This document shows, piece after piece, positions 32,496 through 49,356 of a DNA stretch of 64,000 nucleotides. This DNA is from Parvimonas sp. oral taxon 393 str. F0440. GTDB lineage: Bacteria > Bacillota > Clostridia > Tissierellales > Peptoniphilaceae. The stretch lies in assembly GCA_000223315.2 (NCBI GenBank), contig AFUS01000005.1, forward strand, positions 496,001-560,000, written 5' to 3'. Under the pieces are notes generated by a model. That model worked only from the letters and a program-made list of their open reading frames with translations. It searched no databases and was not told the origin of the DNA. The number at the start of each line of letters is the position of its first letter. The first letter of the stretch is position 1. Both the position numbers and the translations under genes were made by a program.

Positions 32496-32571
<76 letters not shown>

Positions 32572-32615
32572 ATATTTAATATTATGATTTTTTTGCTATG
32601 CGATAGCTCATTCTC

Positions 32616-32712
32616 TCGTGCTTCGCACTAGACTAAGATATTAATTTAAAATATCTTCGATTTCATCTCGATATTTTGGTTACTCTCTTATACCGACTAT
32701 CGCTATCTGGGC
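32616..32712. repeat. Direct repeat near tRNA-Phe, copy 2
   Basis: Same unit as 32307-32404. It again ends in a sequence resembling the tRNA-Phe 5' half plus its upstream flank (GCTATCTGGGCATATTTA). Confidence 0.85.
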
Positions 32713-32733
32713 ATATTTAAAATATTATGTAAA

Positions 32734-32807
32734 TGGCAGGGGTAGAAGGAATCGAACCCTCATCAGCGGTTTTGGAGACCGACATTCTACCGTTGAACTA
32801 TACCCCT
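32734..32807 (-). tRNA. tRNA-Trp (CCA)
   Basis: Acceptor AGGGGTA/TACCCCT, anticodon loop CTCCAAA with CCA, encoded CCA end. Confidence 0.96.
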
Positions 32808-32877
32808 ACAGTATCAATCCTTTTTTAGCTCTATAAAATAAGAGATATTTCTATAATAGAAATATCTTCAGATAATT

Positions 32878-32954
32878 TGGTGGGCCTTCAGGGACTTGAA
32901 CCCGGGACCTACCGGTTATGAGCCGGGCGCTCTAACCAACTGAGCTAAAGGCCC
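32878..32954 (-). tRNA. tRNA with CAT anticodon (elongator Met or Ile2)
   Basis: Acceptor GGGCCTT/AAGGCCC, anticodon loop CTCATAA with CAT, encoded CCA. The three CAT tRNAs cannot be told apart with confidence by eye; it lacks the unpaired first base of initiator tRNA, so elongator Met or lysidine-modified Ile2 remain. Confidence 0.92.
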
Positions 32955-32961
32955 AAATTAT

Positions 32962-33052
32962 TGGCGGAGAAAGAGGGATTTGAACCCTCGCATCCCGTAA
33001 AGGATCTACTCCCTTAGCAGGGGAGCCTCTTCAGCCACTTGAGTATTTCTCC
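32962..33052 (-). tRNA. tRNA-Ser (GCT)
   Basis: Class II tRNA with long variable arm; anticodon loop CTGCTAA with GCT; acceptor GGAGAAA/TTTCTCC; encoded CCA. Confidence 0.96.
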
Positions 33053-33056
33053 ATTG

Positions 33057-33145
33057 TGGCGGAGAGGGTGGGATTCGAACCCACGTGGGCGTGAACCCAA
33101 ACGGTTTTCAAGACCGCCTCGTTATGACCACTTCGATACCTCTCC
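33057..33145 (-). tRNA. tRNA-Ser (TGA)
   Basis: Class II tRNA; anticodon loop CTTGAAA with TGA; acceptor GGAGAGG/CCTCTCC; encoded CCA. Confidence 0.96.
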
Positions 33146-33150
33146 ATGAA

Positions 33151-33226
33151 TGGTGATCCATCGGGGATTCGAACCCCGGACACCCTGATTAAAAGTCAGG
33201 TGCTCTACCGACTGAGCTAATGAATC
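33151..33226 (-). tRNA. tRNA-Lys (TTT)
   Basis: Anticodon loop CTTTTAA with TTT; acceptor GATTCAT/ATGGATC with one G-T pair; encoded CCA. Confidence 0.95.
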
Positions 33227-33233
33227 ATAAAAT

Positions 33234-33310
33234 TGGCTGGGGTAGCAGGACTCGAACCTGCGGAATGCTAGAGTCAAAGTCTAGTGCCTTACCGACTTGG
33301 CTATACCCCA
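33234..33310 (-). tRNA. tRNA-Gln (TTG)
   Basis: Anticodon loop CTTTGAC with TTG; acceptor TGGGGTA/TACCCCA; encoded CCA. Confidence 0.95.
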
Positions 33311-33315
33311 AAGGT

Positions 33316-33392
<77 letters not shown>

Positions 33393-33396
33393 AAAA

Positions 33397-33470
33397 TGGA
33401 GCGGGTGAAGGGAATCGAACCCTCGCAACCAGCTTGGAAGGCTGGGGCTCTACCACTGAGCTACACCCGC
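33397..33470 (-). tRNA. tRNA-Gly (TCC)
   Basis: Anticodon loop CTTCCAA with TCC; acceptor GCGGGTG/CACCCGC; encoded CCA. Confidence 0.96.
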
Positions 33471-33510
33471 ATATAAACTCAAACTTTATGGTCTTAACAA
33501 AAAATTCAAT

Positions 33511-33595
33511 TGGTGGAGGAGAGTGGATTCGAACCACTGAAAGCGCAGCTAACGGATTTACAGTCCGTCCCCTTTGGCCACTCGGGAACTCCTCC
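33511..33595 (-). tRNA. tRNA-Tyr (GTA)
   Basis: Class II tRNA; anticodon loop CTGTAAA with GTA; acceptor GGAGGAG/CTCCTCC; encoded CCA. Confidence 0.96.
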
Positions 33596-33617
33596 ATATA
33601 ATCTACAAAAAGCAGAT

Positions 33618-33693
<76 letters not shown>

Positions 33694-33701
33694 ATAATTA
33701 T

Positions 33702-33778
33702 TGGCGACCTGGATGGGACTCGAACCCACGACCTCTAGCGTGACAGGCTAGCATTCTAACCAACTGAACTACCAGGCC
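33702..33778 (-). tRNA. tRNA-Asp (GTC)
   Basis: Anticodon loop CTGTCAC with GTC; acceptor GGCCTGG/CCAGGTC; encoded CCA. Confidence 0.96.
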
Positions 33779-33783
33779 ATATT

Positions 33784-33859
33784 TGGTGGGCACAATAGGG
33801 CTCGAACCTATGACCCCCTGCTTGTAAGGCAGATGCTCTCCCAACTGAGCTATGCGCCC
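33784..33859 (-). tRNA. tRNA-Val (TAC)
   Basis: Anticodon loop CTTACAA with TAC; acceptor GGGCGCA/TGTGCCC; encoded CCA. Confidence 0.96.
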
Positions 33860-33888
33860 AAATATAACCAACACCAATTAAAATAAAG

Positions 33889-33963
33889 TGGTGACCCCAC
33901 CGGGATTCGAACCCGGGTTACCGCCGTGAAAGGGCGATGTCTTAACCGCTTGACCATGGGGCC
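33889..33963 (-). tRNA. tRNA-Glu (TTC)
   Basis: Anticodon loop CTTTCAC with TTC; acceptor GGCCCCA/TGGGGTC; encoded CCA. First gene of the minus-strand tRNA operon. Confidence 0.96.
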
Positions 33964-36730: not shown

Positions 36731-36898
36731 ATTTTCCCTCCTAAATTATAAATATAAATTACATTTTATTAAATCATAATCTCTTTTTAATAATTAAATT
36801 TTGGTTATTATGATGAAATAATTATGGCTTTATCATATGGCATAAAGCTATAATTATTATATCACAAAAAATATTTTTATAACAGTAAAAATAGAAAA

Positions 36899-40314: not shown

Positions 40315-41160
40315 CTAAACGATAATAACATCTTCAAATCCATTTTGAAGTGCTATTTGTTTTAATTCTTCCATTTCATCATCCGTTGGAGCAGAAAACA
40401 TACTATATTCTTCTCTAACTCCATATTTTCTGTATTTTATAATTTTATATCGAATTTTATGTCCCATTTTTATGTATTTGGAAAGCATCTTTGTAATATT
40501 ATCAATAGTAGTTCTATTGTCCATTCCGGCAATTGTTACAGTCCTTATCTCAAATAGTTTATTAATACTTGCAAGATAATCTGCATTTTCTAAAACCACA
40601 TCAACCTTACTTTTAGTTATAAAAAGATGTTCCTCATTATCAAAAGCCTTTATATCGAGCATAAAAGCATCTGAAACTTCTACAAAATCAGGAAGTCTCT
40701 TTAAAGGTATTCCACCATTTGTATCAACAAAACAAGTAAGACCAAGCTTTCTAACCTCTGTAAAAAGAGAAGTTAAAAAAGTATGTTGCAAAGTACATTC
40801 TCCACCACTAACTGTAATCCCCCTTATAAAAGGTATATTCTTTTTTATTCTTTCGACCGTTTCTTCAACTGTCCAATTATAAATCTTTGGACTTGAAAGA
40901 TGCTTACAAACCCTTATACATTCATCACAATTTATACAGGTTTTATCATTCCAAACTATTTTTCCATTTACATTCTTCAAACTCTTAGTCGGACAAGACG
41001 GAATACATTCCATACAATTTATACAATGTCTAATAGTTTCAGGATTATGACAATAAAAACAGTTAAAATTACAACCCTGTAGGAAAATAGACGTCCTGTT
41101 TCCAGGTCCGTCTACCACCGACATATCTATTATTTTATTTATAATTCCTTTATTTGACAT
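40315..41160 (-). CDS. yjjW: YjjW-family glycyl-radical enzyme activase
   Basis: Radical SAM enzyme of 281 residues that installs the glycyl radical on its partner. The radical SAM motif CNFNCFYC (CxxxCxxC) is near residue 30. Two ferredoxin-like cluster motifs are inserted after it (CINCMECIPSCP and CINCDECIRVCKH), as in other GRE activases, and SGGECTLQ follows. The start overlaps the end of the yjjI gene by 11 bases. The physiological reaction of the pair is not known. Confidence 0.93.
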   Translation of the reverse strand: MSNKGIINKIIDMSVVDGPGNRTSIFLQGCNFNCFYCHNPETIRHCINCMECIPSCPTKSLKNVNGKIVWNDKTCINCDECIRVCKHLSSPKIYNWTVEETVERIKKNIPFIRGITVSGGECTLQHTFLTSLFTEVRKLGLTCFVDTNGGIPLKRLPDFVEVSDAFMLDIKAFDNEEHLFITKSKVDVVLENADYLASINKLFEIRTVTIAGMDNRTTIDNITKMLSKYIKMGHKIRYKIIKYRKYGVREEYSMFSAPTDDEMEELKQIALQNGFEDVIIV

Positions 41161-42685
41161 CTCTAACCTTACGTTCTAATAAATGATATTTTTCAAAAGC
41201 CTCTCTTGCATATTGAACAGTATCATAGCTGATACTTTCTCCGTCAATAAATTTTTGCATATCAGATTTCTTTACTAAATATCCTGTTACACGAATCAAA
41301 TCGCCATTTTCTCCATAACATGAAATATATCTCATATTTAATCTAAATGCAGCCTTAAAAATATCTAAAACAGCAGCAGGATTCTTTTCAGCAGTTTCAT
41401 CAAATGGAAAATGGTCGCCAATTCCTGATGGAAAATACTTATGGAATAAAGCTGAATGTTTAATATGGTCATACATAGGAATTTCCTTACCTATTCTGAT
41501 TCTAACTCCTGCACTATCTTCCATATCATCTTGTGCCCCAACTTGTGAATGAAGCATAAATCTATGGTTCCAGAAAGTTGAATACTTACTTTCAAATGAA
41601 TTAACTCTATTTTCTACAAAATCCATTACTTCTAGCCCCAAATTGTTGGCATAATCGTCTTTTCCATAAACTAAATCTTTACTTTCAAACTCTAAAAGTT
41701 TTTGAACACATTCATGAAGTCCTACAACTCCGAAAAGTCCAACAAATCTATCTAACTCGATAAAATCTTCTTTAACTAAGAAGTTTTCCTCAAAGAAAGG
41801 AGTTTCTTCAACTATAAATCTGATTTTTCCTTCCATAAAATTGCACATTAAATCTATTGCTTCAGGTAAAACTCTATTAAAGAAATCTTGTTTTGAACTT
41901 GAACTTCTAGCAAGAGAGCCAAGTCTTAATCTACTTAAAGTAAATGCTCCGCCTGAAATTGGAAGTCCATTATAGCAACTTGCTATCGCATAATCTCCAT
42001 TAAAATCTTTTCTATAGTATTTATCATTAGCAAAAGCAGGATTTGCAGTTAAAAGAGATGCATAAACTGCCTTTTCTCCAAAATCGTCAGGTGTAATATC
42101 TTCATCATAAAGAATTGTCATATTTGGAGTAACATTATTTAAAATTGGAAGTAATTCTAAAATAATTTCTCCTGCAACAGTCTTTTCAGGGCCGATATTT
42201 GCATGGCAAAAACTGTCATTAATTGTTCTATCCAAAGAAACTAAAAACCACTTAATTAACTTTTTAGCTTCCTCTCTATCTGTAATAAATGGATCTAAAA
42301 GCTTATCAATTTTCCCAATATAAACCGGGTATCTTGTTATAGAAGGAACATGATGATAAAAAATCAATAAACTATTTATTGCATCGAGTAAAGTTTCAGC
42401 CTTCTCAAGACGTAAAAACTTACAACCCTCATCTAAAAGTTTTTGATAATTAGGGCAAATATATCTCGGTGCATAAGGCGCATGACCTTCCCACAAATCG
42501 CAGAAACCTCCATTTTCAGAAATTTCAAAAATTCTATCATTAATTGAACTTACAGGAAAATCATTCAAATTCTCTGCAAGCTTTGCAAGTTGAGAAGTCT
42601 TTTGCTCATAAGTTAAATCCTTAGCCTTAATAATATTCATTGATAATTCTCTAGCTTCGTCCAATGTTTTTATTTTAGAAATCAT
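41150..42685 (-). CDS. yjjI: YjjI-family glycyl-radical enzyme
   Basis: 511 residues, shorter than pyruvate formate-lyase. The C-terminal glycyl-radical site is RVTGYLV (residue about 485), and a candidate thiyl cysteine lies in IASCYNGLPISGG. The start at 42685 (MISKIKTLDEAREL) follows GGAGGTATTT. The family (DUF3029) is conserved in anaerobes but has no established substrate. Paired with YjjW and no other metabolic gene. Oxygen-sensitive by nature of the radical. Confidence 0.93.
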   Translation of the reverse strand: MISKIKTLDEARELSMNIIKAKDLTYEQKTSQLAKLAENLNDFPVSSINDRIFEISENGGFCDLWEGHAPYAPRYICPNYQKLLDEGCKFLRLEKAETLLDAINSLLIFYHHVPSITRYPVYIGKIDKLLDPFITDREEAKKLIKWFLVSLDRTINDSFCHANIGPEKTVAGEIILELLPILNNVTPNMTILYDEDITPDDFGEKAVYASLLTANPAFANDKYYRKDFNGDYAIASCYNGLPISGGAFTLSRLRLGSLARSSSSKQDFFNRVLPEAIDLMCNFMEGKIRFIVEETPFFEENFLVKEDFIELDRFVGLFGVVGLHECVQKLLEFESKDLVYGKDDYANNLGLEVMDFVENRVNSFESKYSTFWNHRFMLHSQVGAQDDMEDSAGVRIRIGKEIPMYDHIKHSALFHKYFPSGIGDHFPFDETAEKNPAAVLDIFKAAFRLNMRYISCYGENGDLIRVTGYLVKKSDMQKFIDGESISYDTVQYAREAFEKYHLLERKVRDVK

Positions 42686-42898
42686 AAATACCTCCAATTT
42701 TATGTCAAAAAGTCATTTACTATTTACCCATATTATATATGAATAATCTCCAAAATGATACTGTTAATTGTCTTTTTTAAGTAGATATTTTAAAAAATTT
42801 TTCAGAAAAAACTAATAAACTTTTTATAAATACAATTGAGTATTTATTATATTTCTAAAACAATTAGCCCAAAATATACAATTACTCCAAATAAATTT

Positions 42899-43075
42899 AC
42901 TTTTGTTTACTTGTAAACAAAAGTATGAGATTTCCAGGGCGATTGTATCAGAAGATACAATTGCTCCCGTCAGGCCTACTATTGCTTGTAAACAAGCAAA
43001 GTTAGGGCTAGATTGACTACTCTCGAGATAACGTGTTGGTGGTTTTTCTTTAAGTTGCTATGACATGAATTATTT
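42899..43075 (+). repeat. Composite intergenic repeat, copy B
   Basis: Palindrome ACTTTTGTTTAC/GTAAACAAAAGT, then ATGAGATTTCCAGG, hairpin GCGATTGTATC/GATACAATTGC, CCCGTCAGGCCTAC, hairpin TTGCTTG/CAAGCAA, GTTAGGGCTAGATTG, then a degraded GAGATAACGTGT and TTGCTATGACATGAATTATT. Lies between yjjI and the GNAT gene; fills most of 42698-43114. Confidence 0.85.
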
Positions 43076-43114
43076 AGTTTCTATATATTTTTCAACTTAG
43101 ATATCTGAGAGTTC

Positions 43115-43582
43115 CTAATTTTTTATATAGTGAATAATATCCATTTTATCATTTATTCTATCAATTTCTCCAGTCTTTGTATATCCTAATTTTTCGTATA
43201 AGTAGCAGTTTCCTTTTTCTTGAAATATTGTATCAAGCTCCCAATTACCTTTACCATGAATTCTTTCTATTTCATAGAAAGCTTTTTGAGCTAACCCTCT
43301 ATTACGAAATCTCTCCATTATAAATACAGGTGCTACTCTTTTTCTGCTTCCGTCTCTTCTATCAATTACCCGAATAGCACCAACGATATTATTTTCCTCA
43401 TAAATATAATAAAAGAAAGTATATTCTTGAAGTAATTTAGTTTTGATCTTTTCTTTAGTTTCATTTGCAGGATTAGTATCAAAATCTTGATATTTATCCA
43501 ATAATTTTTGGAATGCTTGAACTTGCATTTCCCATAATTTTTCTGTGTCCTCAATGCTTATTCTAACTAACTTTATATTCAT
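43115..43582 (-). CDS. GNAT-family N-acetyltransferase
   Basis: 155 residues. The acetyl-CoA loop region is FRNRGLAQKAFYEIERIHG and the C-terminal YLYEKLGYTKTGEID is typical of small-molecule or peptide GNATs. The start follows GAGGTGAACT. Single gene behind a composite repeat in the accessory stretch. Substrate unknown. The following 43583-43899 stretch holds nothing I can support apart from AT-rich DNA. Confidence 0.88.
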   Translation of the reverse strand: MNIKLVRISIEDTEKLWEMQVQAFQKLLDKYQDFDTNPANETKEKIKTKLLQEYTFFYYIYEENNIVGAIRVIDRRDGSRKRVAPVFIMERFRNRGLAQKAFYEIERIHGKGNWELDTIFQEKGNCYLYEKLGYTKTGEIDRINDKMDIIHYIKN

Positions 43583-43899
43583 AGTTCACCTCAATTTCTA
43601 AATCTACTTCTCTAAAGATTAATATTATGACAAAATTAATTTTATATAAACCTTTTTAGTATTTCTTATTCAACTTTCTTAAATTTGCTAAATTAATATC
43701 ATAAATGACACTTCTTAATTCTATCATATAACATTAGTGTTATATTAGTTTTAAACTAACAATACATAAATCAATAGATTTTAATAATTGTGATTATAGT
43801 TTTCTCTTATATTAATTATCCCTTTAATTCCATGGAATTGTATTTCAGCTAAGACTCTTCAAAACTTACTAAATCCATATTATCTTTAAGACAAACTTT

Positions 43900-44914
43900 T
43901 TAACTATTTTCATAATAACTTTTAAGTTTATAAAGTTGTTCTTTTATGTTACTCTTTAATTCTTCTTCTACTTGAAAATAAGTCAACAACTCTTCTATTT
44001 CATCCTCATCTCGTTTTAATCTTACAAAATTAAATACTTCTTCATCATGATAGGAATCTTCAAATATACCTCTTAAAGTAATTAACCTAAGAAGATTTTT
44101 GTTAAAATTGTCTTCTAATTTATTAAAATATATCCCTAAATGTACTAAAGCTTTTTCTTTTTTCCTAATTTATATAAACATTTAAACATCATTCCATGTT
44201 TCCCAATAATATCAGAAGATTTTAGTGAACACTTATAAGCTTTTTTATACATTCCTTGCTCATAAAACACCCTTGACTTTTCTAATATTAAATCATACTT
44301 ATATCTATTTAAATCATTACTTAAATATTTGTATTTAAAAATTATATTATTAAGCTCATAAAAGTAATTATTAATAGTCTTAAAATTATTTGCCATAAAA
44401 CTTATATTTGGATTAAATGGAAAGAAAACTCTACCATTAAATTCATTTTTTGCATTATCATTATATGAATAACATGTAATAGCCTCTTTTATTTTCTTTA
44501 ACAAAATAATTTCCTTACAAGTCATAAAATTATGATAAAAACTTAAGCTTTCTACCTCTTCAACAATTTTTTTGACAGTCTATCTAGTTCATTCCCTATA
44601 GGTATCAAATAATCTTTGTTCTCATCATATAAATATGATTCATTTAAACATTTATTTTGTAACATCAAATCATACTATTCCTCACTAAAAATATTTGCTT
44701 TTATTTTGTTTTGAGATACTGAAGGCCTCATGCCACGATTGTCAAACGCCATTTGTAGATAAAATAAAATATACACGGAAATTACATTTACATCATATTC
44801 AACTACAGGCCTTACTTTTCTATATCTAATAATTTCTGGTATCTTTGTGAAAATCAGCCAAAAAATAAATCCTGAAACTAAAGATGTTACAACAGAAATG
44901 ATTATTTCATACAT
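43900..44914 (-). pseudogene. Broken membrane-anchored TPR-like protein (one nonsense codon, two frameshifts)
   Basis: Starts MYEIIISVVTSLVSGFIFWL with one N-terminal membrane helix; ribosome-binding site AAAGGAAA. After NIFSEE an in-frame TAG (44675-44677) interrupts, and the same frame goes on YDLMLQNKCLNESYLYDENK. Two one-base deletions follow, at the T runs 44567-44573 (restored SKKIVEEVESLSF) and 44158-44163 (restored KKEKALVHLGIYF). Restored length about 338 residues including the stop. The middle has helical pairs like tetratricopeptide repeats (VFYEQGMYKKAYKCSLKSSD). The two frameshifts match the error pattern of the window; the nonsense codon does not, so a real pseudogene is possible. 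Function unknown. Confidence 0.7.
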
Positions 44915-45064
44915 ACAACAATTTCCTTTCTAAATGTTAAATTATTTTTAATTTTTTATTATTCTTAAATTATACTAATTACAATTATTGAATAATATTG
45001 TAAAAGTATTAGCAATATACATATTAATTATAACATAAATAATTGTTTAAGATAATGATTTATT

Positions 45065-45250
45065 TACTTTTAAAGAAGTTAAATTATCTATGAAATCTCC
45101 AGCGCAATAGCGTCAGAAGGTACAATTGCTCTCGTCAGATCTACTATTGTTTGTAAACAATCAAAGTTAGGAGATTCACTTCACTCAGCTTCGATTTAGT
45201 CAAAATGACGTGTTTGTGGTTTTTCTTTAAGTTGCTATGACATGAATTTT
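45065..45250 (+). repeat. Composite intergenic repeat, copy C
   Basis: Degraded form: TGAAATCTCCAG, hairpin remnant, CTCGTCAGATCTAC, hairpin TTGTTTG/CAATCAA, AAGTTAGGAGATTCACTTCA, CTTCGATTTAGTCAAAATGA CGTGT, GTTGCTATGACATGAAT. Sits between the broken TPR gene and the pyrimidine-dimer glycosylase gene. Confidence 0.8.
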
Positions 45251-45258
45251 TTTGTTTT

Positions 45259-45627
45259 TTATAGTTTTAATTTTATCCCTTTTTCTCTTAAATTTTCTAT
45301 ACATTCAATCAAGTATTCATTATTATGCTCTTTGTAAATTGGGGTATCTGTAATTTTTTCTTCAAGATTATTATAACTTTCTGCTTTCTTTCCTCTATAA
45401 TTCTTATCTTTCCATTCTAAAGAAATATTATATCCTCTTTTTTCCATTTCATCCATAACTAATGAGTGATAAACAAACAAGTAATACGGAGAATATAAAA
45501 ATACATAATCTACAGTTTTGTGTTTTTTTCCCCATCCATTACCTCTAAGTGCACAACATTCTCTATGTTGACCAAGAAGCTGATTTCTAGGTAATAAGGG
45601 GATAATTTTTTCATGCCAAAGTTTCAT
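45259..45627 (-). CDS. Pyrimidine-dimer DNA glycosylase-like protein (endonuclease V fold, TIGR02328 type)
   Basis: 122 residues beginning MKLWHEKIIPLLPRNQLLGQ, then HRECCALRGNGWGKKHKTVD, a signature of the short Pyr_excise-type proteins. Such proteins are predicted to remove UV photodimers, though many short members are uncharacterised. It overlaps the end of the DUF1722 gene by 17 bases, and a DUF1722 domain is often linked with photolyase-like repair genes, so a DNA-repair pair is plausible. Confidence 0.8.
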   Translation of the reverse strand: MKLWHEKIIPLLPRNQLLGQHRECCALRGNGWGKKHKTVDYVFLYSPYYLFVYHSLVMDEMEKRGYNISLEWKDKNYRGKKAESYNNLEEKITDTPIYKEHNNEYLIECIENLREKGIKLKL

Positions 45628-46015
45628 ATTGTTCTCCTATTAATAAAGTTGATTCTTGTAAATATTTATTAGGATATTTCTTTAGTAAATAATTGATATA
45701 TTCAATTACATCTTCCTGATTATTTTTCCCTTTCATATATTCTTCTAATATATTAAATAATTCTTGTTTTTCAATTTCACTTGATTGCTTTTTGAAATAT
45801 CCCCATACATGAAGAATAGCGTTCGTGAAATCTTTTTTATTCTCTTTTACATCTCTCGCTTTTTGTATTTTTTCATTTAGAATTAAAATATCTACTTCTT
45901 TTTCCTTCAGATACTCTCTAATCTCTAAATATATTTTATGCGATTTGCTTAATACGTAATATTTATTTTTTGCCCATAGTTCTTCACATTCTTTTTTTAT
46001 ATTTTTGTTACTCAT
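45611..46015 (-). CDS. DUF1722 (YbgA-like) protein
   Basis: 134 residues: CEELWAKNKYYVLSKSHKIYLEIREYL, HVWGYFKK and the C-terminal LLKKYPNKYLQESTLL are characteristic of the DUF1722 domain. Function unknown in the family. The start at 46015 (MSNKN) is a guess; the frame is open to an ATG at 46051 and neither has a strong ribosome-binding site. Operon with the pyrimidine-dimer glycosylase-like gene. Confidence 0.82.
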   Translation of the reverse strand: MSNKNIKKECEELWAKNKYYVLSKSHKIYLEIREYLKEKEVDILILNEKIQKARDVKENKKDFTNAILHVWGYFKKQSSEIEKQELFNILEEYMKGKNNQEDVIEYINYLLKKYPNKYLQESTLLIGEQYETLA

Positions 46016-46280
46016 ATTAGCACCATCTTTCAAAATACTCAAGTTATTCATATATTTAATATAATCACTTCTTATACTAATTCAAAAAAAGATTTAAAAT
46101 TATATGTTTTTATTATACCACAAATAAACTAATTAATTTTTTAATAATAGTATTTGTATAAAACTATACTTTTTATCTTTATATATTTATATTAAATAAT
46201 GATAGAATATAATTAAGAAAGTAGATTTATGAGATTCCCATTACCATTGATTTAAAGAATAGAATTTTTCCTAACCACTC

Positions 46281-46400
46281 TACTTTTGTTTACAAATAAA
46301 CAAAAGTATGAGATCTCTCCACTTCACTCAGCTTCGCTTCGTTTCGGTCGAGATGACGTGTAGGGAGATTTTCTTTGTAAGGTACTATGACGCAAATTAT
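46281..46400 (+). repeat. Composite intergenic repeat, copy D (short)
   Basis: Palindrome ACTTTTGTTTAC..AAACAAAAGT, then ATGAGATCTCTCC and directly CACTTCACTCAGCTTCGCTT, GGTCGAGATGACGTGT and GGTACTATGACGCAAATTAT. The middle blocks (GTCAGACCTAC and GTTAGGGCTAG) are missing, as if deleted between the palindromes. Confidence 0.85.
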
Positions 46401-46437
46401 TTTATTTTTATACATTTTTAAAATTTTAAAATTTTAA

Positions 46438-46530
46438 AGTTTATCTACTGATAACGTCAAGCTATTAAACGAAGTTTTCTACCTTTTACGTCATTTCGAC
46501 TGTAGCATAGCGAAATGGAGAAATCTCATA
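46438..46530 (-). repeat. Composite intergenic repeat, copy E (inverted fragment)
   Basis: Reverse orientation: ACGTCATTTCGACTGTAGCA, TAGCGAAATGGAGAAATCTC. With copy D it makes an imperfect inverted pair around 46400-46440. Copies D and E account for most of the 46052-46643 gap. Confidence 0.8.
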
Positions 46531-46550
46531 TTTTTAATTTTTTTCACAAG

Positions 46551-46588
46551 AAAAAGCGACTAAGATTTTCTATTTCTTAATCGCCTTG
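46551..46588 (-). terminator. Terminator of the flavodoxin-fold gene
   Basis: AAGCGACTAAGA, loop, TTCTTAATCGCCTT with flanking A/T; on the minus strand past the stop at 46644. Confidence 0.6.
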
Positions 46589-46643
46589 TATCTTCAATAT
46601 TCAGTTTTATTTAGCTCGACAAACTGGGATTTGTTTAATGAAT

Positions 46644-47336
46644 TCAGTTTTTCCATGGTTTCTTTCCATCCAGCCATCCCTGTTCTTTCCAGTACTTAGT
46701 ATCGATTGGATTAAGTCCCTTTTTCTGGAAGAGTCTCATCACAGAGAATAGTACTCTTACCTTTATTCCGGGGCGAACCTTGTTTCGTCTGATTAGTATT
46801 TTCTTTGCTATTGATGAAACATTCTTTTCAATGTGTCTCCGTTTCTTATCGCTTACCTGTTCCCAACTTGTAGCTGCAACACCTGTTCCAAAACGATATA
46901 TCTTTCCAACTCCCCAGAAGAGGAGACTGTCCGCCATATCCTTGTTAGTTGACTTAACTCCTGCACCGGCAGCTGTAGAAATACAGACTCCCTGCTTTCT
47001 AAACATTGAGTCCTTTGGTCTATGAGACATCCAGCGGTAACCGTAATGATCTAATAAGCTCTTCATGGCACCTGTTGTATGGAAAACATAAACTGGACTT
47101 GCAAGTATTATCACATCGGCATTGTCAATTGCCTCTGTTATAGGGGAAAGCTTTTTAAAATGGGGGCATTTATCCTCTCCATTTATAAAGCAATTTGTAC
47201 ATCCACAACAAAATTCATCGAAATCTTTCGGAAGGAAAATCTCTGTTAATTCACCATCCAGTTTTTCAGCAAGCAAGTGAGCTATATGGAATGTCGAACC
47301 CTTATGGCTCTGACCATGAATTATTGTAATTTTCAT
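46644..47336 (-). CDS. Flavodoxin-fold NAD(P)H-dependent oxidoreductase
   Basis: 230 residues; N-terminal IIHGQSHKGSTFHIAHLLAE binds the flavin phosphate, followed by CCGCTNCFINGEDKCP, a cysteine-rich loop common in the iron-sulfur flavoprotein/NADPH-dependent FMN reductase group, and SPVYVFHTTGAMKSLLDH. Base composition is visibly less AT-rich than its neighbours, which suggests recent transfer. It begins three bases after the (interrupted) end of an XRE regulator frame, so the two form one unit. Substrate unknown. Confidence 0.9.
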   Translation of the reverse strand: MKITIIHGQSHKGSTFHIAHLLAEKLDGELTEIFLPKDFDEFCCGCTNCFINGEDKCPHFKKLSPITEAIDNADVIILASPVYVFHTTGAMKSLLDHYGYRWMSHRPKDSMFRKQGVCISTAAGAGVKSTNKDMADSLLFWGVGKIYRFGTGVAATSWEQVSDKKRRHIEKNVSSIAKKILIRRNKVRPGIKVRVLFSVMRLFQKKGLNPIDTKYWKEQGWLDGKKPWKN

Positions 47337-47390
47337 TTCTCACCTCAACACTATATAATCAATATTATGTTTAAGACAAAACTCTTTAAT

Positions 47391-47537
47391 TTATTTCATA
47401 GCTGACATATTTGGTTTGCTCTTTCCACCTTCCCAACGGTTGACGGATGAAAATGAGACACCAATTTCCCGTCCAAATGCTTCTTGTGATAAAAAGCACT
47501 TCTGACGAATTTTCTTTATTTCTTCTGAATAAGTCAT
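47391..47537 (-). pseudogene. Truncated XRE-family helix-turn-helix regulator
   Basis: Reads MTYSEEIKKIRQKCFLSQEA, then FGREIGVSFSSVNRWEGGKS and KPNMSAMK, then TAA at 47391-47393. The same frame continues IKEFCLKHNIDYIVLR to a natural stop at 47340, the usual XRE tail, so the TAA looks like a point mutation of a Lys codon (AAA). All of the DNA-binding helices are intact, so a 48-residue protein could still work. A run-length error cannot explain it. Start follows GGAGATGAAAT. Probably controlled the flavodoxin-fold gene behind it. Confidence 0.75.
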
Positions 47538-47604
47538 AATATTTCATCTCCTATTTTATATGTCATTAATATAGCATTATTATAACATAAATAACTAATT
47601 AAAA

Positions 47605-47820
47605 GAATGGTTTGTTTACATTTAAGGAAGTTGAATTGTCTGTGAGATTTCTAGAACAATTCTACCAGAAGATACAATTGCTCCCGTCAGATATACTTTT
47701 TGCTTTTTTAATAGTACTGAAATACCATTATGAAAGGAACTTGATGAGATTTCTCCACTACGGTCGAAATGACGTGTTGGGATATTTTCTTTACAAGGTG
47801 CTATGACGTGAATTATTTTA
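47605..47820 (+). repeat. Composite intergenic repeat, copy F
   Basis: GTGAGATTTCTAG, hairpin CAATTC...ACAATTG, CTCCCGTCAGATATAC, a diverged stretch, then GATGAGATTTCTCCACTACG, GGTCGAAATGACGTGTTGGG and GGTGCTATGACGTGAATTAT. Confidence 0.8.
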
Positions 47821-47840
47821 TTTTTTCATTTTTATTTATC

Positions 47841-47920
47841 AAATCTACTATTGCTTATAAACAAGCAAAGTTAGGGCTAGATTCGCTCCACTCAGCTTCG
47901 CTTCGTTTTAGTCGAGATTA
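47841..47920 (+). repeat. Composite intergenic repeat, copy G (partial)
   Basis: ATCTACTATTGCTTATAAAC, AAGCAAAGTTAGGGCTAGAT, then CTCCACTCAGCTTCGCTTCG and TAGTCGAGAT. Starts where copy F ends. With F it accounts for the 47538-48078 gap. Confidence 0.8.
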
Positions 47921-47938
47921 TGTATTAAGGAGAATTTA

Positions 47939-48078: not shown

Positions 48079-49356
48079 TTATTCATTTTCCTCATCAACT
48101 AAGCCTGAAAGTTTTGCAACACTGTAAGTACAAACCATATCACCTGTTACATTGTTCATAGTTTCGAACATATCAAGTATTGGGTTAATTCCTAATGCAA
48201 GACCAACTATAACAGCTATTTGTTCTGGAGAAAGTTTCATATTTTGTAAGATTATAAATAGTAACATTAAACTTCCGCCCGGAACTCCACCTGCTCCTAC
48301 TGATGCAAGAACAGTTGTTAAAACTAGAACTGAAAGTGAAACAAATGTAACTTTAACACCAAACATATTTGCAGCTAAAATTGCAAACATTGGTAAGTGG
48401 ATACAAACTCCGTCCATGTTGATTGTAGAACCTAAAGGTAATGCGAATGAAGAAATATTTTCACTTATTTTTAAATCTTCTTTTGCAACTCTAAGAGATA
48501 CAGGAAGTGCTGCAGCAGAACTTCTTGTTACAAATGCAGTAAGCATAGGTTCTTTTATTTTCATCAATACTTTAAAAGGATTTACTCTTAATGTAAGAGC
48601 CATCATTAAAGGATAAACAATCAATACCATAGCAAAAATTCCAAGTACAACTCCTATTGTAAGTTTGATATAAGGTCCAAATAATGAAGAACCATAACTT
48701 GCAAAGTTTACTGAAGTAAGAGCAAATACCCCAATTGGAGAATATGCTAAAATCCAATCTACAATTTTAAAGATAGCTTCTTTTGCAACATCAATTATAT
48801 CAAGTAAAGCCTTAACTTTTCCTGAATATTCAGCTCTTTCGGAAATCATCTTAAGTGCAAGACCAAAACCTATAGAAAATACAATAATAGCTAGGAAATT
48901 ACCTTGTGCTAAAGCTTGGAATGGATTTTGGAACATACTTATAAATACATCTGTTAATGAACTATTTGCTTTACTAGCAATTTCAGAAGTGTTTTGTGGA
49001 TTTATAAGAGTTTTCCAAGCAGCTTGTTGTGCTTCTCCTGATCCAGGATTAAATCCTACTGCAAGTACAGAACCTAAAACCGCAGCAAAAAGTGAAGTTA
49101 AGAAATACCAAACTATTACCTTTACCCCGATTTTTCCAAATTCCTTTGTAGGAACTGAAGCAGCCCCATCAATTAAAGACAAGAAGATTACCGGAATTAC
49201 AATCATTTTTAACATTGCAACCAAAACTTGACCGAATGGGGAAACGATTTTTACATAGCCGGAGATATCAACTTTCGCCAACCATAATACTACTCCAAGT
49301 ACCAAACCCGCAATAAAAGCAATGAACACTTGAAGTACAAGATTTTTTTTACTCAT
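48079..49356 (-). CDS. Dicarboxylate/amino acid:cation symporter (DAACS family)
   Basis: 425-residue GltP/SstT-type transporter, eight helices plus two re-entrant loops. Hallmarks: the serine-rich loop TRSSAAALPVS, LPLGSTINMDG, and the substrate region ETMNNVTGDMVCTYSV. Imports glutamate, aspartate, serine or a C4-dicarboxylate with Na+ or H+. Ribosome-binding site AAGGAGGC. Single gene, divergent from a Crp/Fnr regulator 435 bases away. The region between (49357-49791) is AT-rich promoter DNA. Confidence 0.93.
   Translation of the reverse strand: MSKKNLVLQVFIAFIAGLVLGVVLWLAKVDISGYVKIVSPFGQVLVAMLKMIVIPVIFLSLIDGAASVPTKEFGKIGVKVIVWYFLTSLFAAVLGSVLAVGFNPGSGEAQQAAWKTLINPQNTSEIASKANSSLTDVFISMFQNPFQALAQGNFLAIIVFSIGFGLALKMISERAEYSGKVKALLDIIDVAKEAIFKIVDWILAYSPIGVFALTSVNFASYGSSLFGPYIKLTIGVVLGIFAMVLIVYPLMMALTLRVNPFKVLMKIKEPMLTAFVTRSSAAALPVSLRVAKEDLKISENISSFALPLGSTINMDGVCIHLPMFAILAANMFGVKVTFVSLSVLVLTTVLASVGAGGVPGGSLMLLFIILQNMKLSPEQIAVIVGLALGINPILDMFETMNNVTGDMVCTYSVAKLSGLVDEENE

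Follow-up and report, generated by a model that had tools for sequence, protein, structure and literature searches.

In the minimal mobile elements of Neisseria, small genes that differ from case to case lie within conserved flanks, mobility genes are absent, and spread is attributed to transformation. Neisserial intergenic mosaic elements and dRS3 arrays are described as sequences with a possible role in promoting both recombination with acquired DNA and exchange at the loci next to them (PMC3898611). Repetitive extragenic palindromes and bacterial interspersed mosaic elements (REP/BIME) are described as dispersed intergenic palindromes, arranged in composite blocks and associated with REP-associated tyrosine transposases (RAYTs) (PMC2817692), and Correia elements and miniature inverted-repeat transposable elements (MITEs) as small intergenic repeats regarded as non-autonomous mobile elements (PMC2229807, PMC2649163). 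Here, we analyzed a locus of Parvimonas sp. oral taxon 393 str. F0440 that lies in a stretch of 64,000 nucleotides (contig AFUS01000005.1, positions 496,001 to 560,000 of the forward strand; hereafter the window, in whose numbering positions are given) and in which copies of a composite palindromic repeat stand among small genes between a yjjI-like gene and a DAACS symporter gene. A preliminary description had proposed gene gain at repeat-flanked sites of this pocket, perhaps by homologous recombination between repeat copies, with gain or loss of whole modules from repeat to repeat as the sign to look for. We found that gain and loss of genes at the pocket is real, while recombination between repeat copies as its driver is weakly supported.

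Gene content of the pocket across Parvimonas species

The source genome (G000) was compared with five congeners: Parvimonas parva S3374 (G001), Tissierellia bacterium KA00581 (G003), Parvimonas micra SYY (G005) and two further Parvimonas genomes (G002 and G004). Among named genomes, the yjjI protein had three matches, which were P. parva S3374, Tissierellia bacterium KA00581 and P. micra SYY. The yjjI-like gene (41150-42697, minus strand; the name is that of the preliminary description) forms the left border of the pocket and is found in 6/6 Parvimonas genomes with 85-100% protein identity. Together with a crp-like gene it occupies the locus in all six, and the contents between the two differ, with three interval states other than that of the source genome among the five congeners. 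In G004, the nearest relative (yjjI DNA identity of 97.5%), and in G002 (94.3%), a cupin gene stands between yjjI and the symporter. These two border genes are ~1.03 kb apart there, and neither interval matched any of the window's repeats or modules. In P. micra SYY, yjjI is followed by the GNAT gene with a repeat on either side of it, then by the cupin gene and what remains of the symporter, and in G001 and G003 yjjI adjoins the crp-like gene directly, no part of the pocket being present. The cupin gene was called by Pfam in G002 and by reading like DNA in the others. The DAACS symporter gene (48079-49356, minus strand; also named in the preliminary description), which is the right border in the window, does not stand here in G001 and G003, and in P. 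micra SYY it is cut down to three short pieces (L063 6409-6591).

Genome-wide gene searches of the congeners covered the GNAT, flavodoxin and DUF1722 genes and a TPR-like region. The GNAT gene (E 1e-15) was matched in P. micra only and in none of the other four congeners; the flavodoxin gene (E 1e-20) and the DUF1722 gene had no match in the other five Parvimonas genomes, and the TPR-like region had no DNA match there longer than about 80 bases. In G004, the GNAT, flavodoxin and DUF1722 genes and the DNA of the TPR region were thus all without a match, and its interval consists of the cupin region only. The preliminary description had set its proposal against a single gene order with all modules everywhere, and this is not what the five congeners show.

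The pocket resembles the minimal mobile elements of Neisseria in that flanks are conserved and contents differ (6/6 genomes) and no mobility gene was matched: the seven pocket proteins or fragments gave no match to transposase or integrase families in Pfam and NCBIfam scans. It differs from them in that its variation is seen between species, not strains, in that the cupin and DAACS genes also come and go, and in that repeats are interspersed among the modules. Integron gene cassettes were considered as well, and the same scans bear on them in having matched no integrase family.

The GNAT acetyltransferase gene (43115-43582, minus strand; Pfam PF13673, 1.7e-8) carries the clearest signal of exchange. 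Its open reading frame has 98.7% nucleotide identity between the source genome and P. micra SYY over 467 columns, compared with 89.6% for yjjI, 90.5% for crp and 92.0% for thrS (Fisher p of 5e-13, 6e-10 and 3e-9, respectively, with sites treated as independent). At third codon positions, 4/156 differ in GNAT and 130/516 in yjjI. Vertical descent does not account for such a likeness, and the nearest relatives lack the gene; GNAT was apparently exchanged recently between the two species or received by both from a common third source. Near-identity starts at about 43070, where a repeat ends, and stops at about 43665, a point without a repeat. On the right of yjjI, the adjoining flank (42698-42857) shares 87% identity with P. 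micra, which makes the tract short, and the repeats to the left of it are built differently in the source genome and P. micra, in the same place. Variation from species to species, and a GNAT cassette that is more alike than core genes and whose left switch in identity lies at a repeat end, are direct observations, and they confirm the part of the earlier proposal that concerned gain and loss.

To the right of the tract, the two genomes differ by 3.9 kb, from about 43664-43678 to about 47542. The left end of this difference has no repeat and its right end lies at the leader of an XRE gene (about 47542-47579); here P. micra continues directly into sequence that matches the XRE leader and the following repeat extension at 89% identity, without the XRE gene. 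With a non-repeat point at one end and a gene leader at the other, the difference is better explained by loss of DNA from a longer arrangement in P. micra, or by an insertion in the source lineage, than by a crossover between repeats. The leader-like sequence kept without its gene is what deletion would leave, and this and the DAACS remnant in P. micra favor a history in which a larger ancestral island was trimmed by independent deletions, the repeats were original and little recent exchange took place. We consider such a history quite improbable, as GNAT is far too alike for species whose core genes are about 8-10% apart, and the G004 and G002 intervals hold the cupin gene with no trace of modules or repeats.

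The explanation that we prefer, with moderate confidence, is that ordinary homologous recombination changes a permissive pocket, in which the palindromic repeats collect as passengers. The stretch from yjjI to the crp-like gene would be a variable pocket where insertions do little harm, and small cargo genes would be gained and lost there through homologous recombination with DNA of other Parvimonas strains and species. The incoming DNA would most likely be provided by natural transformation, and conserved flanking DNA, at times a repeat, would supply the homology. The composite repeats would be independent elements gathering in the same permissive space, which may at times mark one edge of an exchanged piece without being a general crossover site. 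We infer transformation as the route, the flanks as homology and the passenger role of the repeats. A ComEC-type competence gene is present in 6/6 genomes. Natural competence is stated for P. micra in one passage of PMC12476148; elsewhere the same paper has competence shown only by strain JM503A, a proposed separate species, and the word 'repeat' is absent from its main text. As a case of recent gene exchange between Parvimonas species that is tied to one defined pocket of the chromosome, the locus helps to keep apart two ideas that are often merged, namely that repeats sit in variable sites and that repeats cause the variation.

Composite repeats and variable sites in the wider genome

The composite repeat was matched at least 72 times in the source genome, at least 70 times in G004, at least 51 times in G002 and in P. 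micra SYY, at least 5 times in P. parva (G001) and at least twice in G003; these counts are lower bounds, with 40 first-look candidates per genome scored. The 72 matches in the source genome led us to reject a chance origin of the repeats. Like Correia elements and MITEs, the pocket repeats are small and intergenic. Among the matches listed, 41/41 repeats in G004 and 30/30 in G002 lie within about 391 kb of dnaA by a hand count (spanning C1:363138-1033308 in G004, and C1:1158376 through zero to 186214 in G002), which is not proof of confinement because 40/90 and 40/71 candidates, respectively, were scored.

To what extent the repeats mark variable sites was assessed in stretches of four genomes covering the repeat-bearing region. 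With 248 shared genes, 243 of the 247 neighboring pairs were used (four non-collinear pairs were dropped), and intervals were called variable at a threshold of 500 bases. By the second of two repeat annotations, 23/38 intervals with a repeat were variable versus 47/205 without one (odds ratio of 5.2, p 9e-6); the first annotation gave an odds ratio of 6.3 (p 5e-7) in the same test. This association is a point in favor of recombination between repeat copies as the means by which whole modules are inserted and removed, and so is the fact that the modules of the pocket sit between repeat blocks. However, the odds ratio fell to 2.2 (p 0.07) when intervals shorter than 100 bases were left out (22/34 versus 39/85 variable), and to 2.4 (p 0.06) when length was in addition counted without repeats. 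In all four genomes, 47/70 variable core intervals were repeat-free. Accessory genes with ectopic copies numbered 18/243 in repeat-bearing intervals versus 9/262 otherwise, and 9 of these 18 lie in one 53 kb interval of G004.

The edges of the events also bear on the proposal. Of 99 gaps between G000 and G004, 46 show a difference of 500 or more non-repeat bases; three of the 46 were dropped as swapped-block artefacts, and 35 of the remaining 43, those with a clear empty site, were used for edge tests. Repeats overlapped 12/43 events against a null mean of 17 under random placement in intergenic space. In this permutation test a repeat was scored at any position within an event, a measure that long insertions inflate, and separate tests of empty sites and of edges were therefore run. 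A repeat was found at one or more edges of the longer allele in 7/35 events versus 5.1-6.8 expected. We also aligned short repeat-bearing alleles (short intervals limited to 1100 bases) with longer ones, in 24 comparisons from nine sites that are not independent of each other, with edges taken as the points where BLAST alignments stop (30-base tolerance). Both insertion edges in the longer allele were in a repeat once, one edge was in nine comparisons and neither was in 14.

At the focal pocket itself, the empty site is repeat-free in the two nearest relatives, G004 and G002, and the difference between the source genome and P. micra, with its left end outside any repeat and its right end at the XRE leader, argues in the same direction. 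On the basis of these edges we regard recombination between repeat copies as a doubtful explanation of the modular pattern. This also limits the comparison with the neisserial mosaic elements and dRS3 arrays, which the pocket repeats resemble in description as arrays of short repeats; unlike for dRS3 arrays, no integrase target is known for the pocket repeats, and their association with edges is weak.

Several observations nevertheless weigh against repeats as mere passengers of homologous recombination, and the evidence for some involvement of repeats is not negligible. The first concerns scope: with one genome per species, the comparison is between species and not between strains. In the flank-homology comparison with minimal mobile elements, the left switch in GNAT identity lies at the repeat and not in yjjI, next to the flank with 87% identity. 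Repeats were in modest excess at the empty site (8/35 events versus 3.0-4.4 expected, p 0.008-0.07) and at both edges (2/35 versus 0.2-0.4 expected). With short intervals excluded, a repeat in the emptiest genome was associated with variability at an odds ratio of 2.8-3.3 (p 0.02-0.04). In 17/24 comparisons the short allele breaks at a repeat on one or more sides, and in 4/24, all from one site, on both sides; part of the 17 is expected, since short alleles are rich in repeat. The left edge of the GNAT tract, the excesses at empty sites and at both edges and these short-allele breaks also speak for recombination between repeat copies. Finally, G004 has a 51.7 kb insertion relative to G000 (C1:768874-820602). 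Each of its two ends falls inside a composite repeat or about 25 bases or less from one; an overlap of 8 bases is seen at the junction, and the G000 junction is inside a repeat. The G000 interval exceeds 1100 bases, which places this pair outside the 24 comparisons, and the insertion may be an integrating element with the repeat as its target.

A GIY-YIG nuclease gene beside the repeats

Like REP/BIME, the pocket repeats are intergenic palindromes that are dispersed and grouped into composite blocks, and a small enzyme gene lies next to them; unlike in REP/RAYT, the gene beside the Parvimonas repeat encodes a GIY-YIG nuclease. A Y1 transposase (PF01797) was detected in 1/6 Parvimonas genomes (G004) and not in the source genome. 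A RAYT system was rejected, as a Y1 transposase gene beside the repeat was not found.

The GIY-YIG protein has 92 residues, and seven gene copies with at least 87% protein identity were found in 5/6 Parvimonas genomes: two in G000 (C3:126002-126280, L207, and C5:600-833; one of the two is frameshifted), two in G004 (C1:722617 and C1:731586) and one each in G001 (C11:72849), G002 (C1:1531423) and G003 (C41:2795), with no close copy in P. micra SYY. In four copies, 26-34 bases separate the end of the gene from the start of the repeat. In G001 and G003 the same palindromes, read by eye, follow the gene directly, and the seventh copy, which is on a small contig, has a repeat match on each side. 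Judged by upstream DNA, the copies occupy at least three different sites. In another genus of the family (g3, genome G007), a homologue with 57% identity (L212) lies beside a different palindromic repeat that has 87 matches in that genome, including itself. GIY-YIG genes in other bacteria often have similar hairpins behind them. Among the literature records listed in our searches, none links a GIY-YIG nuclease to intergenic repeats of bacteria.

These arrangements allow a more speculative view, which we think unlikely: the composite repeats may be a dispersed target or transposition partner of the small GIY-YIG nuclease in at least two genera of the family, and cuts at repeats may raise local gene exchange around the replication origin and so produce pockets such as this one. 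The pair of nuclease and palindrome would then be analogous to RAYT/REP, with a different enzyme as its basis, and a real link would identify what drives a repeat family of otherwise unexplained origin. For the focal pocket, the corresponding explanation is that a nuclease coupled to the repeat cuts repeat sites and that repair from incoming DNA drives exchange of the neighboring genes. The constant association (7/7 close copies with a composite repeat just behind or on both sides) and the homologue in the other genus are consistent with it. We judge it very improbable all the same, because cutting of the repeats is putative, the edges of longer alleles are mostly outside repeats, and P. micra SYY has at least 51 repeat matches with no close copy of the nuclease; a nuclease link, if causal, is not needed for the repeats to persist.

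Layout of the pocket and condition of its genes

Four repeat blocks separate three gene sets between yjjI and the symporter, as the preliminary description had it. The blocks (no strand assigned) are copy B (about 42880-43100), copy C (about 45080-45290), copies D+E (about 46280-46545) and copies F+G (about 47640-47935). They were drawn by coverage from copies elsewhere; a further delineation is slightly wider, partly because of the chosen seed limits. Copies C and F share an extension, which begins at 45027 and 47579, respectively. The modules were correctly described as reading one way, on the minus strand, and this says little, since yjjI and the symporter are also on the minus strand.

The first gene set was described as a repeat-bounded unit of GNAT plus TPR. 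We found no repeat between the GNAT gene and the TPR-like remnant to its right, so that this unit does not hold in the form proposed. The remnant (43900-44929, minus strand) is a gene broken into several frames (43900-44169, 44145-44579, 44552-44674 and 44675-44929), and its TPR label should be read with care, as it comes from a weak ANAPC3 match (E 0.01, below the Pfam cut-off). A stretch just past the end of the TPR-like gene (43872-43910) is similar over 39-44 bases to the 3' end of the XRE gene (47357-47395) and is perhaps the remnant of a second XRE gene.

The second set consists of a gene of the Pyr_excise (2.3e-23) and TIGR02328 (2e-60) family by Pfam and NCBIfam (45259-45627, minus strand) and a DUF1722 gene (45611-46051, minus strand; 1.4e-18), which overlap by 17 bases. 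The third holds an FMN reductase-like gene of flavodoxin fold (46644-47336, minus strand; FMN_red 9.9e-19), whose GC content of 40.0%, against 29.1% for the window, suggests a foreign origin, and an XRE-type helix-turn-helix stub (47391-47537, minus strand; HTH_3 1.6e-8) with an in-frame stop after 48 codons.

The broken genes of the window may in part reflect sequencing error. In the source genome dnaA is split over three reading frames (C2:1-2500, L097), a sign of indel errors in the assembly, and among genes with a full-length counterpart 32/209 G004 genes look broken in G000, compared with 1/199 in the reverse direction. Several lesions within about 1 kb are nevertheless more than the background rate, 33 frameshifts and 12 stops per 234 kb, would give.

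Other candidate origins for the cargo were rejected. Comparison with phage and plasmid collections gave short matches only, which fell in 4 phage and 27 plasmid records and had 67-73% identity among the rows listed, and relatives of the GNAT protein in the plasmid collection reached at most 54% protein identity, in five records. The modules were also rejected as defence genes: the six module proteins other than the helix-turn-helix stub had no PADLOC match, and the stub had weak matches only. A known RNA family within the pocket was rejected as well, with nothing there at the Rfam gathering score. Elsewhere in the window, a dfrA-dnaX RNA match above the Rfam gathering score lies at 36768-36843, and 14 tRNA genes are clustered at 32499-33963.

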